DNA of 39,470 nt from Gammaproteobacteria bacterium (GTDB lineage Bacteria > Pseudomonadota > Gammaproteobacteria > Thiohalomonadales > Thiohalomonadaceae): assembly GCA_026196575.1 (NCBI GenBank), contig JAPHSX010000036.1, forward strand, positions 1 through 39,470. The letters run 5' to 3'. Shown in pieces: positions 28,551 through 34,686 of this stretch. Position 1 is the stretch's first letter, and each line of letters opens with the position of its first letter. A program made the translations under genes and the position numbers. A model generated the notes under the pieces. The model did not search any database. It worked only from the letters and a program-made list of their open reading frames with translations, and had not been told where the DNA came from.

Positions 28551-28580
28551 AAAAAAAAGGGACGAGGCCAGCCTCGTCCC
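28551..28580 (-). terminator. Intrinsic terminator of the minor pilin operon
   Basis: On the minus strand GGGACGAGG pairs with CCTCGTCCC around a four-base loop and eight T follow. It lies 24 bases past the stop of the giant pilin gene. Confidence 0.92.
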
Positions 28581-28603
28581 TCTATCTCCTGCTACGACAT
28601 CAA

Positions 28604-31384
28604 TTATGGAAAGAATGAACAGTACTCAACCGCATCCGTCCTGGCATCTTGATACGTCACCGAGCCTGGGACAAGATCCAACAGTGTTGCCACGCCGGTT
28701 GCCGCACTTATCGGGTTCGGAGAACAGATCCTCGCCCAATCGGTGCCGTTGGTTGTGAAAATGACATCTCCACTCCAGCGCTGATTTTTGTTTATCGGTT
28801 TCGTCGTCACGCATGAATAGGCATGCGATTGTACATAACCATCTAGCAGCGCCGGTACGCTCTCCAGCTCACACGCCCCATCGGGATAACCCGGATCACC
28901 CTCCATAGCCACCGCAAGCGAGGTAACCTGGTCCGCAGCAGGGCAGATATTGTGAGTCAAGAGCGGCGAATCTAAGTCTTCACAGTACGCAGTATCACTG
29001 GGATAGTACACAGAGATCGAACCCCGAATGAAGACATCGTCGGTAGTGTTACAGCTGACTAGCGCCGTGCTGCTGGAACTTTCGGTGATCCCGCTACCAC
29101 CCCAGATGGTCTCTCCGGTACAACTGAGCGAGTTATCTACCGGATCACTCACAGTAATGGTACCAGTCCACCCGCTGAGATAATTAAAGGTCACATCGCA
29201 GGTATAGGTGAAGTCCCAGGAGCCATCCACACGCAATACCTCGCAGGCCCCATCCGTGTTTGAGGAAACCAGCGGCAGAGTAGCCGCGGTGGTATCACTC
29301 ACACCGGTCAGGATACCGGTGATCGGCAAGGTCGTCACCGGCCCTGAACAGAAGGCATCAAAGGCCGTCGCGTCAGCCGTAATCTTCTCACCCTCGGCCC
29401 AGGTTTTGCTGGTCTGATTACAGGTGATACCCGCCGGTGGTGTGGCAGTCACGGTGCCCCACCAGCCGCTGCTAATGGCCTCTTCGTATACCGTGCAGGA
29501 GTACGTCGCCACCGTTCCACTATCCGGCATCACATCGCACTCCACCGGCTCCGCCAAGGTGCCATTCAGATTGGTGCGCACGGCGGTCACGGTGGTTCCG
29601 GCAAGCTCGCCCACATCGTTCATATAGGCGGTCAGCGAACCGGTAATGGTCATTTCGGCCAGTGGCACGCAGGCAAAGTTCTGGCCGGTTTGGTTGCTGG
29701 TGATCGCCGTATAGTCAATCGCAGGGTCACACAACAAACCAGGGCCTGGCGTCACATAGACCGACCCGGTCCAACCATTGCCCCAGTCATAGACAAGGCA
29801 GGCGTAATTAACTGAACTTTTGCCCGTAACCTCAGTGGCGACAAGAGCTTCAAGGTTGGCCAGACTTTCGACAAAGGAGCAGTTATCGGGATTTACGGAG
29901 TTGAGAATTTCCGTGCCATCCAGTACGGCCGGAGCGGACACCGAGACCGTGCCGGTAACATAGTAGGCCAGGGCCGGGCCGCGCGAGGGGTCGTAGGGAC
30001 AGTAATTTTTGGCGTAGTGCCCTGTCTTGAAGGTGTCCAGATATTTGAACGTCTCGGGTACCAGCTCTTCATTCAGGCAGACAAAGTCCGTGGAGACCCC
30101 ATAAAAGAGATCACCGGCGCTGCCATCACTGTTTGTGTCCGAGTCAGCACGAGTCAACGCATTGAGACACTTTGTGCCCGTTGCGGTGCCGGTTATACGC
30201 GTCACCACAAAATCATGACCGTAATAACGTGCCGGCCACGCAGGGTCGGGCAGCACCACGGCATCGCCAATACCCTGTGAATAGTAGAGGGTACCCTCAG
30301 GCAGCAGAACCGGCGAGCTTGCACTCCCGATAAAGGTCATGCCGCGATAAACCCGGCGGATTGCCAACTCCATCTGCCGCCAGTTATTGGTGCCGTCGCC
30401 ATCCTCAACGTTAGGTGATGTCGGGTCACCTATACAGGCGTAGTCCTGATTGCCTCCATCGTTAAAAATAACACCGATGTTTCCGTGCCAGCCGCCACCC
30501 AAGTAACAGGTGTAGTCGTAATACTCATAATTGCCGTTGGGCGAGGTGGTGGTTATGTTGGGGATATCACGCGCGCAATAGGCGGCGTCGGATGCCAGCA
30601 CATAGATATCGGCAAGATCCACTGTGGGATTGCCATCTATATCCCGATAGACACGCCCGGAGATCTTTACAAAGTCGAGACAGCTGCCACTTACACAGGC
30701 ATCCTCCAGGGTGAGTACGATATTGTAGGTGCCATCGTCATTGGCCGTGGTATCGACCAGCACGGTGTCATCACCCACATCAAAAATGGTTACGGTACCG
30801 TCATCGTTTGCGGTGCCCGCGTCGAGCTGATCCTGGGTCACCGTGCCGTCGCCCAGATAGGCCCGGCCGGTGGCCGAAGGGACCAATGGGGTAAAATCGT
30901 TGGAGGCCAGATCGGCCGTTCCACGGGGGTTTTTCCAGCCCAAATTGGTGTTAAGTGAAACCGTTTGCAGCCCCTGGCGCAGGTCGGTCCAGCTGACATT
31001 GACCACCACGCTACAGGAGTCGGCCGCGCACGCCACATCCCACTGTCGGGAGAAGTCGGCGTTAACGCCGCTAATGGCCTCTGCGGTGGTGGGGTAGGTC
31101 TGGTCGACGACATCCGTGGTGAACTCCAGAGTCGTATCGAGCGTGGCGTCCATCAGATTGGCAACCAGTCCCGGCTCGGTGGAGTAGGTACGCAATTCGT
31201 CAAGTTTCTGTTGCGCCAGCTGCACCGCCTCGCTGCGCGCCTTGCTGTAGGCGCTGCCCGCCACCAGCGTGCTCTGGAATTTTGCCACCGCCAACAGGCC
31301 AAACGAGAGCACGACCAACGCGATCAGCGCCTCAATCAGGCTAAAACCTGACATCTTTTTCACCGTATAGGTTCCCTTCGCCAT
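28604..31384 (-). CDS. Giant PilV-like minor pilin with cysteine-rich repeats
   Basis: This roughly 926-residue prepilin-like protein has a class III signal cut before FSLIEALIAL (GFSLIEA, Glu at +5) and a hydrophobic helix typical of PilV. Only about the first 150 residues look like PilV. A linker and TIFDVGDD region follow. Then come five divergent repeats, each with Tyr-x-Cys, 4-11 residues, and Trp-x-Gly (YTC..GWHG, YAC..GWTG, YSC..GWWG, YTC..GWTG, YSC..RWSG). The last four repeats each carry a four-cysteine pattern. There are 28 cysteines in all. The ATG follows GGAG by six bases. Ordinary PilV is 150-200 residues, so most of this is an extra surface-exposed module, possibly adhesive. 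Confidence 0.85.
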   Translation of the reverse strand: MAKGTYTVKKMSGFSLIEALIALVVLSFGLLAVAKFQSTLVAGSAYSKARSEAVQLAQQKLDELRTYSTEPGLVANLMDATLDTTLEFTTDVVDQTYPTTAEAISGVNADFSRQWDVACAADSCSVVVNVSWTDLRQGLQTVSLNTNLGWKNPRGTADLASNDFTPLVPSATGRAYLGDGTVTQDQLDAGTANDDGTVTIFDVGDDTVLVDTTANDDGTYNIVLTLEDACVSGSCLDFVKISGRVYRDIDGNPTVDLADIYVLASDAAYCARDIPNITTTSPNGNYEYYDYTCYLGGGWHGNIGVIFNDGGNQDYACIGDPTSPNVEDGDGTNNWRQMELAIRRVYRGMTFIGSASSPVLLPEGTLYYSQGIGDAVVLPDPAWPARYYGHDFVVTRITGTATGTKCLNALTRADSDTNSDGSAGDLFYGVSTDFVCLNEELVPETFKYLDTFKTGHYAKNYCPYDPSRGPALAYYVTGTVSVSAPAVLDGTEILNSVNPDNCSFVESLANLEALVATEVTGKSSVNYACLVYDWGNGWTGSVYVTPGPGLLCDPAIDYTAITSNQTGQNFACVPLAEMTITGSLTAYMNDVGELAGTTVTAVRTNLNGTLAEPVECDVMPDSGTVATYSCTVYEEAISSGWWGTVTATPPAGITCNQTSKTWAEGEKITADATAFDAFCSGPVTTLPITGILTGVSDTTAATLPLVSSNTDGACEVLRVDGSWDFTYTCDVTFNYLSGWTGTITVSDPVDNSLSCTGETIWGGSGITESSSSTALVSCNTTDDVFIRGSISVYYPSDTAYCEDLDSPLLTHNICPAADQVTSLAVAMEGDPGYPDGACELESVPALLDGYVQSHAYSCVTTKPINKNQRWSGDVIFTTNGTDWARICSPNPISAATGVATLLDLVPGSVTYQDARTDAVEYCSFFP
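28619..30667 (-). repeat. Five protein-level repeats in the giant pilin
   Basis: The units are approximately 30434-30667, 29669-29959, 29348-29650, 29051-29326 and 28619-29032, read from N- to C-terminus. A unique stretch of about 155 residues separates the first from the second. They are alignable only as protein; I see no long identical DNA repeats. Confidence 0.7.
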
Positions 31385-31404
31385 GATCTGCTCCTTACCC
31401 CGTA

Positions 31405-32649
31405 TCAATTAAAATCGCGCCAGCTGCCGCCACTGGAAGCGGGGCGTCCGCCCTCCGATGTTCGCCTTAGCACATCCGAGTTGTAGTGAATCTCGAAACT
31501 GCCCGTCAGATTGGAGGGCTCTCCGGCAACCACAATGGAACCCACGCTGTAGGGGTTACCGTGCCCTGACGTGCCTCCCATAACATAGAGCATGCCGTAA
31601 AAATCGGCGTTACCCTGCATGGTGAGCGTACCATTGACGATCATGATTACCGGCGAGATTTGAGCACCGGTGCAGTGATCATTGCCCGGGGGGTCGATAC
31701 CGCAGCCCACGATGGTTCCCGCACTGAGGGTGACATCCCCATCCACCCATATCACCTCGGGATTGGTTGAGAGATGGACTTCGGCACTCACATCATCCGT
31801 GGCCGGGTCGAGATCCATGGTCACCATGCTGTTGCGATACTCGGTGGGAGGCATGCCAAAAAAGTTCTCAAAGAACTCATCCTCCGTCAGATTAGCCAGG
31901 CTGCTGTCCTGCTCAATGACATCGAGGCCGGCAATACCACTATCGGAAGAACCCACCGTGACGCAGGGGGTGGAGGCGTCACCCAGACAGTTGGGATAAC
32001 CCGCATCGGCTGGATTGGCAATGAAGGTGTTTATCGTCGCACTACTACCCAGATCAACCGCACCACCAGACCAGATAGTGGAGTGCCCCTCAGCGTTGTA
32101 GACATCGGCGGAGCCGGAGATAATCGCGGTACCGCGTGTCAGCAGCGGGTTCTCCGGCACATTGGGCAGGGGGTTAACCAGCGCCACCACCTGTGTGATG
32201 GTGCGGGTGGCCATATTGTCATCACTCAATCCTGTCGAAACGATCTCCGTCGCCACGGTATCGCTAGTCGATAGATCCTCCAGTGTCACTGTCACACTGG
32301 CCCCGTTCGCCAGGGTGAAGGTGTTGCTGTCATTGGTACCATCATTATCGGCATCGAACAGAAACTCATCTGCGTCTGGAGTGGAAACATCGGCGGGAAG
32401 AATGCCGTCGCTATCCCTATCCCTGCCACCACCAATGTAGGCCAGGGCAAGCTCCATCCCCGCCTCGGCCGCCTCAAAAGCCATGTTGCTGCGATAGACG
32501 TTGGCCGCGACCTTTTGCTCCACCAACACCGTGCGTGAGGTATTGAGCGAGACCAGGGTGATCACCGCCAGCAGCACCAGCGAGATGAGCAGGGAGGCCG
32601 CCCCCCGCTGGCGGAACTGCAAAGCATCAACCATTACCATTCTTTTCAC
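31405..32649 (-). CDS. pilX: PilX-like minor pilin assembly protein, extended
   Basis: This is an about 414-residue protein. The N-terminal PilX signature RQRGAASLLISLVLLAVITLVSL lacks the usual Glu5 prepilin residue, as PilX proteins do. The helix continues to NMAFEAAEAGMELALAY. The C-terminal 200 residues are rich in short Gly/Ser/Thr strands (GDVTLSAGTIVG; GTLTMQGNADFYGMLYV), suggesting a beta-helix or beta-solenoid. Usual PilX is about 170-200 residues, so this one is roughly doubled. The GTG start at AGGAG plus six is preferred; an ATG nine bases later is possible. The downstream giant pilin begins 20 bases after its stop. Confidence 0.82.
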   Translation of the reverse strand: MKRMVMVDALQFRQRGAASLLISLVLLAVITLVSLNTSRTVLVEQKVAANVYRSNMAFEAAEAGMELALAYIGGGRDRDSDGILPADVSTPDADEFLFDADNDGTNDSNTFTLANGASVTVTLEDLSTSDTVATEIVSTGLSDDNMATRTITQVVALVNPLPNVPENPLLTRGTAIISGSADVYNAEGHSTIWSGGAVDLGSSATINTFIANPADAGYPNCLGDASTPCVTVGSSDSGIAGLDVIEQDSSLANLTEDEFFENFFGMPPTEYRNSMVTMDLDPATDDVSAEVHLSTNPEVIWVDGDVTLSAGTIVGCGIDPPGNDHCTGAQISPVIMIVNGTLTMQGNADFYGMLYVMGGTSGHGNPYSVGSIVVAGEPSNLTGSFEIHYNSDVLRRTSEGGRPASSGGSWRDFN

Positions 32650-32675
32650 ACCTCTCTCCTCACCAACTGATGGCA

Positions 32676-33473
32676 CTATGGAATCTCCCTGACCAGATTA
32701 TTGCGAACCTGCACGCTCTGCGTGAGACTGCCAACCACACTGGCATCATCGGCCAGGGCGGCACTTAACGTAATCGTTACCTGCCGAACCTCCACCACCG
32801 TCTCGCCCGTGTCGGCGGGGTACGAGGCGTTATAGCAGTCCCGCTCGGCGAACACCTCCGCCGCTGCGGCAACCGCCGCGCCGCTCGCCTCATCTTCCTT
32901 ATTGGGTTCACTAAGATTGAGGCACTGGGAATTACCCAGGTCGAAGGTCAGATCGGTGATGGTGATGGAGCTGGTGTCCGTCAGCGACTCCCATGTGCCA
33001 TTGGTACAGTTGTTAACCACGGTGTGCGCCGTGCGCGTCAAAATGGCATTGCCAGCGCCATCCCAGCGAAAACCGAACCCCTCGTTGGTATCCACCCCAC
33101 CGCCATGATTGAGGTCATAGGCATAGACGATACAGGAGCCGCTGCCCTGCGCCCCGGCATTGGCATAGACTCCTCCGCTTAGTGCATGCACCTCCAGCGC
33201 GGTTGAACCCGGTTGCGAAAAGGGATTGGCCGTCGCGGCACCAATGGTACCACCACCCCAGTAACCGGCCCGGCGGATGTCATTCATCATGACACTCATG
33301 ATGGCACCCATATCCTGATTGAGACGGCTGCTCTTCAAGGTGGCGCTACTGCCCTTGATAGTCGAGACATAGACGCTGGTCACCCCGCCGATGACGATCA
33401 TGCCAACCACCGTACCGATCATCAGCTCGACCAGTGAGAGGCCCGCCTGCCACCTTTTGCCACTCATCAACAT
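32676..33473 (-). CDS. pilW: PilW family type IV pilus minor pilin
   Basis: This 265-residue prepilin has the cleavage site before LSLVELMIGTVVG (Gly11, Glu at +5), so the first mature residue is Leu rather than Phe. The helix leads into SSRLNQDMGAIMSVMMNDIRRAGYWGG, a PilW hallmark. The pilin head follows, with several cysteines (SCIVYAYD, VNNCTNG, AERDCYN). PilW joins the tip-priming minor pilin complex in type IV pilus assembly. It overlaps the fimT-like gene by 7 bases. Confidence 0.9.
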   Translation of the reverse strand: MLMSGKRWQAGLSLVELMIGTVVGMIVIGGVTSVYVSTIKGSSATLKSSRLNQDMGAIMSVMMNDIRRAGYWGGGTIGAATANPFSQPGSTALEVHALSGGVYANAGAQGSGSCIVYAYDLNHGGGVDTNEGFGFRWDGAGNAILTRTAHTVVNNCTNGTWESLTDTSSITITDLTFDLGNSQCLNLSEPNKEDEASGAAVAAAAEVFAERDCYNASYPADTGETVVEVRQVTITLSAALADDASVVGSLTQSVQVRNNLVREIP

Positions 33474-34057
33474 GATGCATACCCCGCTACATTCATCGTC
33501 CCGGTGGGGCTACAGATACGCACCCGCCCGATGGTGCTGGAGATCACCCGCATCTCGTAGTCCGTACCACTGTACAGGTAGACCGTGCCATTGGTTGCGG
33601 TGCCACGCACATAGTTGAAGGTGAGCTGTGTAACGCCACCACTGAAGCTGACTGCGCCACCACTGTCGTTACCCATGCTTACCCCGGGGTAGGCGGTACT
33701 GGAGAGCACATTCAACACACGGTCATCCGTGAGGGCATCACCGTCATCAACTATCAGGGTACAGGCCGTCGCATCGGTGCGATCCGTCTCTGTCGGCACA
33801 CAATCAGTGACCGTGCTGACACCCACGGACCAGGTGGTGGAACCGTCCGTGCTGAAGCTGGCGTAAACATCTGCTGAACGGGCGATCGCCTCGGAACGGG
33901 CCAGTTGCAGCTGACTGAAGACCGCCTCCGCCGCGCCGATAAGGCGCCGCTTCTCGAAAAAACCCTTCATCGAGGGTACCGCCATCGACAGCAGCACGCC
34001 CAACACCACGACGGTGACCAGCAGCTCAATCAGCGTAAAACCTTTATCTCGTTCCAC
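33467..34057 (-). CDS. GspH/FimT family minor pilin
   Basis: This 196-residue prepilin opens with MERDKG and the cleaved stretch FTLIELLVTVVVLGVLLSMAVPS (Glu at +5). The head follows RRLIGAAEAVFSQLQLARSEAIARSADVY, characteristic of GspH/FimT pseudopilins. It has a C-terminal cysteine at the very end and others at CVPTET, ACTLIV and ICSP. It is first in the minor pilin operon fimT-pilW-pilX-giant pilin, divergent from pilE. Its role is probably assembly or DNA uptake rather than bulk pilus. Confidence 0.88.
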   Translation of the reverse strand: MERDKGFTLIELLVTVVVLGVLLSMAVPSMKGFFEKRRLIGAAEAVFSQLQLARSEAIARSADVYASFSTDGSTTWSVGVSTVTDCVPTETDRTDATACTLIVDDGDALTDDRVLNVLSSTAYPGVSMGNDSGGAVSFSGGVTQLTFNYVRGTATNGTVYLYSGTDYEMRVISSTIGRVRICSPTGTMNVAGYASC

Positions 34058-34245: not shown

Positions 34246-34686
34246 ATGAAAAACCGCGGATTTACCCTTATTGAATTGATGATTGTCGTCGCGATAGTGG
34301 GCATTTTGGCCTCGATTGCGTACCCGGCCTACAACGATTATGTGTACAAGGCACGACGGGCGGATGCGCGATCGGCCCTCAGCGCACTGCAAATGGCGCA
34401 GCAACGGTTGCGTTCCAACTGCCGCTTCTATGCACAAAACCTCGACACGGCCGACAGCTGCGGGGCGAATGCGGGGGCGACCGATGTCAACCATCCGGCG
34501 ACCAGCCCTGATAATTTTTACGACATTGCCATTAGCGCAGGAAGCGCCAGCGGCAATGCCTACACGGCAACCGCCACTGCAAAGGGAGCACAACTGGCAG
34601 ATACCCACTGCGCCGTCTTCACCCTTACCGTGGATGCCGACGACCCAGATGGCGAGCGTACGGCAACAAATACCGACTGCTGGTAA
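34246..34686 (+). CDS. pilE: Type IV pilin, PilE-like
   Basis: This is a 146-residue prepilin with a five-residue leader MKNRG and mature start [28 protein letters not shown], with Glu at +5. The head carries cysteines at SNCRFY, DSCGAN, THCAVF and the C-terminal DCW. The last two cysteines probably form the D-region loop of pilins. It is preceded by GGAGGAG. PilE-type minor pilins assist pilus assembly; whether this is minor or major cannot be told from one locus. I see no sigma-54 promoter in front of it. Confidence 0.9.

Follow-up and report, generated by a model that had tools for sequence, protein, structure and literature searches.

The window analysed here comprises 39,470 nucleotides of contig JAPHSX010000036.1 from a genome assembly of the gammaproteobacterial family Thiohalomonadaceae (GCA_026196575.1). 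On its minus strand it carries a pilV-like gene (28604-31384) for a modular minor pilin of 926 residues. The protein starts with a prepilin signal, its gene is the last one in a row with the order fimT-pilW-pilX-pilV, four-cysteine modules are repeated in its outer part, and this outer part varies among relatives. Taking the whole chain of argument together, we consider it reasonably probable that the protein is the PilV of a tip complex and that its stacked, disulfide-stabilised beta modules serve as an adhesin. Positions refer to the window and residues to the 926-residue reading unless stated otherwise.

Prepilin signal and repeated four-cysteine units

The open reading frame (ORF) starts with ATG 31384, its stop ends at 28604 and it lies on the minus strand; a first-pass annotation of this DNA had given no strand. 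The longest reading comprises 934 residues and starts at TTG 31408. We prefer the reading of 926 residues because a Shine-Dalgarno sequence AAGGAG (31391-31396, minus strand) is located 6 nt upstream of ATG 31384. The leader of 13 residues (31346-31384, minus strand) ends with Gly13, and Glu5 of the mature protein is residue 18. G13 and E18 are invariant across the alignments A1-A3 (A3 with 8 rows), and N_methyl (PF07963) scores 23.8 bits at a cut-off of 21.2 bits. Judged from the translation, the N-terminus is that of a class III prepilin. Thus both the length and the prepilin nature noted in the first-pass annotation hold. The pilin module (30920-31345, minus strand) is predicted to comprise an N-terminal helix (residues ~16-67) and a beta head reaching to residue ~155, based on DSSP of a low-confidence full-length model and on the PilV N-terminal profile A7. 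TIGR02523 PilV matches this part with E 2.7e-11, from residue 20 to 111 of the 934-residue reading and over positions 2-92 of the profile, but with 926 residues the protein extends far beyond the 139 positions of the model.

The motif Y[TAS]C.{3,14}W.G.[VI] is found in five copies, while in 5000 shuffles of the whole protein the mean was 0.0016 and no shuffle had more than one copy; it was widened from the version in the first-pass annotation and is hence fitted to the find. Owing to this difference a chance origin of the repeats is excluded. The corresponding units A to E all lie on the minus strand. Unit B covers residues 474-575 (29660-29965), unit C residues 577-682 (29339-29656), unit D residues 685-781 (29042-29332) and unit E residues 783-926 (28607-29038). 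Their cysteine quartets are 502/529/552/572, 616/630/655/679, 714/729/755/778 and 838/858/887/922, whereby unit E has an extra pair at 801/814. The quartets listed earlier for the long reading agree exactly after subtracting 8. Four cysteines had been attributed to the last four repeats only, which is correct for B to E but too narrow, as the first repeat in unit A (residues 236-410; 30155-30679) is also flanked by cysteines (C270/C293/C317/C406). Unit A contains the Y-T-C..W-x-G pattern and an insert of ~70 residues.

For comparison, 16 chosen units were aligned (A5). Thirteen come from the loci L034-L037, L039 and L040 and the other three are the window units B, C and D, with units A and E omitted. 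Each of the 16 has exactly four cysteines. All share Gly6, Cys30, Cys45, Gly57 and Cys71 in the numbering of unit D, and Tyr43 and Trp55 occur in at least 90%. The four-cysteine units are homologous across seven proteins, i.e. the one in the window and those of six relatives. A hidden Markov model (HMM) built exclusively from the 13 units of the relatives was scored on the window protein, with 500 shuffles of residues 161-926 as control. It recovers unit B with 37.3 bits, C with 29.4 bits, D with 26.6 bits and E with 11.1 bits (over residues 836-890), the best shuffle reaching 7.8 bits. The five divergent motif copies noted in the first-pass annotation are present. Unit A scores 5.9 bits with this HMM, and 3 of the 500 shuffles score higher. 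An alignment of unit A to the other units with hhalign gave E 2.8e-4 and a probability of 41%; in the profile alignment C270, C293, W-x-G and C317 are in register and the insert precedes C406. Unit A belongs to the conserved middle domain of the family (alignments A4 and A8). Based on this weaker evidence, it may be a fifth, divergent four-cysteine unit with an insert.

No tandem repeats were reported at the DNA level within the window pilV, hence the units are old and diverged. Searches of the outer part against Pfam, NCBIfam, PHROGs and, using phmmer, the PDB sequences gave nothing usable. Ten outer segments were moreover searched against Pfam with E up to 10, where the HMMER filters drop most matches above ~0.1, and no family exceeds its cut-off on the units. 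Listings of Big_6, NVEALA and Por_Secre_tail on the outer part are below cut-off and were dropped as chance. The four-cysteine unit appears to be a domain absent from the family libraries searched.

Operon order and variation in relatives

On the minus strand fimT (34057-33467) is followed by pilW (33473-32676), pilX (32676-31405) and, as last gene, pilV (31384-28604). The giant gene hence follows pilX in an operon that also includes fimT and pilW. The same order is seen in 15 further loci (G001, G002, G005, G006, G007, G009, G011, G016, G053, G055, G098, G118, L035, L037 and L040), with gene identities in relatives assigned by eye from ORF lists. G001 (L034) belongs to the same genus as the window genome. 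In L068 (G236) no fimT is listed above the length filter used, L039 begins at pilX, and the pilX region of L066 (G279) is disrupted. In five relatives (L035, L036/G055, L037, L039 and L040) pilE is located directly 3' of pilV.

The length of PilV ranges from 276 residues in G006 to more than 1164 in G001, where it is cut at the contig end. Linkers of the outer part are Ser/Thr-rich in G005 and G002 and (GTDP)n-like in G006. The PilV of G001 (L034:11761-12464) has three aligned four-cysteine units followed, up to the contig end, by a 138-bp (46-aa) array with 5.1 copies and 89% match. This array is a recent expansion of a different, cysteine-free repeat. A seed HMM from the window units B, C and D yields 1-5 matches with domain E < 0.05 outside unit A in those relatives that have a complete outer part. 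By eye, similar cysteine-bearing units end the PilV of G118, G266, G079:C187 and G055:C129, and no such units are clearly seen in G178 and G079:C22. Complete homologous ORFs with the middle domain are present in eight other genomes (G002, G005, G016, G055, L035, L037, L039 and L040). The pilV homologue of G053 is split into frames of 466 and 349 residues by a stretch (L027:10140-10420) of very roughly 280 bp lacking visible family similarity; its cysteine units sit in the second frame.

The spread of the family was assessed with profiles; when the class and the phylum were searched, a first look scored no more than 11-12 candidates from each genome. The middle-domain profile A4 matches 6 of 369 genomes of the class. 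Three of them (G000, G053, G055) are rows of the profile, and the new ones (G098, G118, G236) are weak with E 9e-8 to 5e-6. In the order it matches 6 of 20 genomes, five of them being profile rows and G007 being new. The unit profile A5 matches four class genomes (rows G000 and G055; G053 and G279 new), four order genomes (rows G000 and G001; G005 and G016 new) and one of 397 phylum genomes, which is the window genome itself. All of its matches are in PilV-type proteins. Thus the fusion of a pilin N-terminus with such repeats, which the first-pass annotation suggested to look for, exists in relatives and in the same operon order. The long-PilX profile A6 matches 217 of the 369 class genomes, whereby many matches listed cover just the N-terminal part, and the PilV N-terminal profile A7 matches 205 (E up to 1e-10). 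Among the A7 matches listed, at least 16 in at least 13 genomes have a stop-to-stop frame of at least 400 residues; five genomes hold profile rows, and such a frame can exceed the gene, as for G055:C129 with a frame of 414 and an ORF of 316. One PilV-type match, G038:C1:782064-782243, has a stop-to-stop frame of 419 residues. At least 11 genomes show, according to the coordinates, a PilV frame of 143-213 residues directly after a long-PilX match, one of them at a contig start.

A plasmid search with the middle domain gave no match. The GC content of pilV is 0.566, that of the window 0.612 and that of the operon neighbours 0.577-0.590. A phage or plasmid origin of pilV finds no support in the PHROG and plasmid searches, nor in its GC content, which is near that of the operon neighbours.

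Modular pilins are a described and diverse class comprising more than 1,200 proteins in 264 architectures, some with grafted PF13620 carbohydrate-binding-like domains, and grafted adhesive modules are established (parts of PMC8179133; passages of PMC10191384 also describe the class in general). S. sanguinis PilB and PilC share with the window PilV a class III signal, a pilin stem and a bulky C-terminal non-pilin part. Unlike them, the window PilV has tandem divergent four-cysteine units without a Pfam family and is encoded in a fimT-pilW-pilX-pilV operon. Three traits mark a modular pilin. The class III signal is present (PF07963 above cut-off, both key residues invariant), as is a C-terminal module apart from the pilin module (repeats over residues 474-926, unit D model). 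Regarding the third, a domain not specific to pili, no Pfam family exceeds its cut-off, and the 4 of 369 class genomes matched have it in PilV-type proteins throughout. Large minor pilins of the CofB type likewise consist of a pilin stem and extra beta domains (passages of PMC8179133), but they belong to another pilus class, the type IVb pili, and no sequence relation to the window PilV is seen. A literature search by titles and abstract openings, with most subscription papers outside its coverage, found no large PilV of this kind. The earlier claim that no pilin with this layout is described therefore falls in so far as modular pilins are a known class, and stands in so far as the four-cysteine module is in no library family.

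Probable tip location and competing explanations

The V. cholerae genes VC0858-0861 encode competence minor pilins in the order fimT-pilW-pilX-pilV (parts of PMC13249403). From the tip, the modelled order is PilX>PilV>PilW>FimT, and the capping PilX is without Glu at mature position 5 (parts of PMC12040237). For M. xanthus, FimU-PilW-PilV-PilX-PilY1 is given from base to tip (parts of PMC13190605). Like the V. cholerae cap, the window PilX lacks this Glu and carries Leu in its place, assuming cleavage after its Gly. The window operon shares the gene order with V. cholerae and differs by a PilX of up to 423 and a PilV of 926 residues. To our knowledge the V. cholerae operon is without a PilY1 gene; the passages cited for it name none. 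Because PilV is a core pilin of the tip complex in both models, the operon favours a location at the tip rather than along the shaft, between which the first-pass annotation ("at or along the pilus") had not chosen.

A short PilV stem would be part of the complex of four pilins by which a type IVa pilus is started and capped. Both models seat PilV directly beneath the cap, so that its extension of ~770 residues is expected to project outside the fibre. The outer part would include the four-cysteine beta modules, with disulfides probably closed in the periplasm, and would form a stiff, protease-resistant arm displayed at the tip which binds surfaces, glycans or cells. The variation of the outer part in length (276 to more than 1164 residues), linkers and the 46-aa array is as expected of a surface ligand-binder.

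The fold was modelled with AlphaFold2 (AF2). Unit D, using the 16-row alignment, is predicted as an all-beta domain of eight strands (best model: predicted local distance difference test, pLDDT, 77.2; predicted template modelling score, pTM, 0.65). Together with the homologous units on pilins of relatives, this model supports the repeated beta domains on a prepilin that the first-pass annotation proposed. In it, DSSP places Cys30 and Cys45 on two strands connected by a short turn. Hence our guess is that the first cysteine of a unit would pair with the second and the third with the fourth.

Several results weigh against the adhesin at the tip. The other four models of unit D reach a pLDDT of 71.9, 59.8, 58.8 and 58.7, i.e. 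three of five are at ~59. The full-length model (926 residues, 8 sequences) is poor with a pLDDT of 39.7, the spatial arrangement of the units is not derivable from it and it was kept out of the fold searches. For unit D, Foldseek gave no significant match (best E 0.024), and VIA-align 2 returned Z of at most 7.0 with several kinds of sandwich mixed. Moreover TIGR02523, a PilV equivalog, scores 44.1 bits and stays below its curated cut-off of 52.2. Finally, the window operon may be accessory because the window genome has a second set with PilY1.

Among the VIA-align 2 entries at Z 7.0-5.5 are the beta-amylase C-terminal domain, CBM20, carboxypeptidase N, the carboxypeptidase D transthyretin-like domain, a BOS complex chain, DUF4876 and DUF3823 as well as S-layer protein, teneurin, a hydrazine dehydrogenase subunit and filamin. 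The chains of CBM20, the carboxypeptidase N/D transthyretin-like domains, DUF4876 and DUF3823 score 5.7-6.5. All are below 8, where a score may reflect merely a common arrangement, and families outside the Foldseek and VIA lists are not excluded. We take several of the listed folds to be prealbumin/starch-binding-like, and the W-x-G ... T-G-x-N-F pattern of the units presumably resembles carboxypeptidase-regulatory-like repeats. No Pfam family of such a prealbumin/CarboxypepD_reg-like sandwich is listed for the ten segments with E up to 10.

In a competence pilus, FimT would bind DNA and the PilV extension would be a spacer or contact the envelope or cells instead of being an adhesin. Such a DNA-uptake pilus fits the gene order, which is shared with the competence operon of V. 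cholerae, and the adjoining pilin with a ComP_DUS match. However, the PilV segments are acidic (computed isoelectric points of 4.05 to 4.37), which disfavours DNA binding by PilV itself, and the at least 11 genomes with a short PilV frame after long PilX indicate that operons can do without the extension. We regard this explanation as unlikely.

PilY1/PilC, the tip adhesin of type IVa pili, is like the window PilV a large modular partner in a four-pilin context. It differs in not being a pilin and in its C-terminal PF05567 propeller, of which the window PilV, a prepilin, has no match. The canonical minor-pilin set of the window genome (L022:71-7248, G000:C47) is fimT-pilV-pilW-pilX-pilY1-pilE with a PilY1 of 1252 residues, which is the only PF05567 match of this genome and not on the window contig. 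Read from gene content, two different tip sets coexist in the window genome. In the five relatives mentioned, pilV lies between pilX and pilE and thus in the slot of pilY1 in this cluster. This would suit an extension that replaces PilY1 in biogenesis by priming, secretin gating or retraction control, with no ligand involved. The lack of a PF05567 match in 7 of 12 strong middle-domain carriers (G001, G007, G016 and the genomes of L035, L037, L039 and L040) points the same way, although it may partly reflect incomplete metagenome-assembled genomes. The other five (G000, G002, G005, G053, G055) have a match; the weak carriers G098, G118 and G236 were left out of this search, which matched none of 14 control genomes and whose sensitivity rests on the genomes with a match. 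Within the order, however, PF05567 (E up to 0.001) is about as common in middle-domain carriers (3 of 6) as in others (9 of 14). Members with the operon and without the middle domain have it in G009 and G011 and not in G006, and counting carriers by operon gives 5 of 9 compared to 7 of 11. That the giant PilV excludes PilY1 is hence not borne out within the order by these counts, for which no significance test was made. Since similar operons with a short PilV exist and the unit number differs between relatives, a cap or plug seems rather improbable to us.

In Neisseria, the system-specific pilin PilV occurs along the length of filaments (parts of PMC10191384), and the window PilV might be scattered in the shaft in the same manner. 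Yet its gene is part of the core four-pilin operon and not that of a stand-alone accessory pilin, and the export of many 900-residue subunits would seem hard, rendering decoration of the shaft very improbable. A decaying or chimeric gene, to which the interruption in G053 could point, is hardly credible given complete ORFs in eight other genomes, the conserved four-cysteine pattern, a good Shine-Dalgarno sequence and a terminator; an assembly or frame artefact is ruled out by conservation in relatives.

Provided that PilV is an adhesin at the tip, some Gammaproteobacteria could possess PilY1-independent type IVa pili whose tip adhesin is an evolvable PilV extension with units gained and lost, and genomes such as that of the window, which has a PilY1 tip set as well as a giant-PilV one, could switch tip sets. 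We put this forward as a tentative possibility, to be doubted rather than assumed. If true, a conserved fimT-pilW-pilX-pilV complex would be re-armed rapidly by a chain of disulfide-stapled beta modules. Which targets type IVa tips bind and how this changes between species is an open question, and much work centres on PilY1. An interchangeable cysteine-rich outer part of PilV, with PilY1 undetected in several genomes, would amount to another and simpler solution. It gives a testable link from tip module to target.

Further features of the locus

The pilX-like gene (31405-32676, minus strand) encodes up to 423 residues with a long head and matches PilX_N (PF14341, E 1.2e-9). The head is well conserved and has the motifs TIWSGG and FFxNFFG, and PilX_N is the only Pfam family matched by this PilX. 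By comparison, the canonical PilX elsewhere in the window genome comprises 190 residues. The pilW-like gene (32676-33473, minus strand; 265 residues) matches PRK10557 with E 6.3e-13, which is below the cut-off of this model. It overlaps by 7 bases with the fimT/gspH-like gene (33467-34057, minus strand; 196 residues; GspH PF12019, E 3.9e-10). A divergent pilE/ComP-type pilin gene of 146 residues is located at 34246-34686 on the plus strand (PF16732, E 1.3e-17, and PF07963). In three relatives an extra GspH/FimT-like gene, assigned by eye, lies convergent to pilE after the operon (L035:11453-12019, L037:11453-12019, L040:11534-12097).

Just past the pilV stop a terminator-like stem of 12 pairs with a T run is found (28556-28583, minus strand). 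A terminator scan of the window yields 5 sites at a shuffle mean of 4.9 and is by itself no evidence, so that the likely end of the operon at this stem rests on its length and position. Downstream of the stem and on the same strand lies a gene for a Fur-family regulator (PF01475; 27952-28383). A similar Fur-type gene, read by eye, is present near the operon in G016 (L028:15142-15618).

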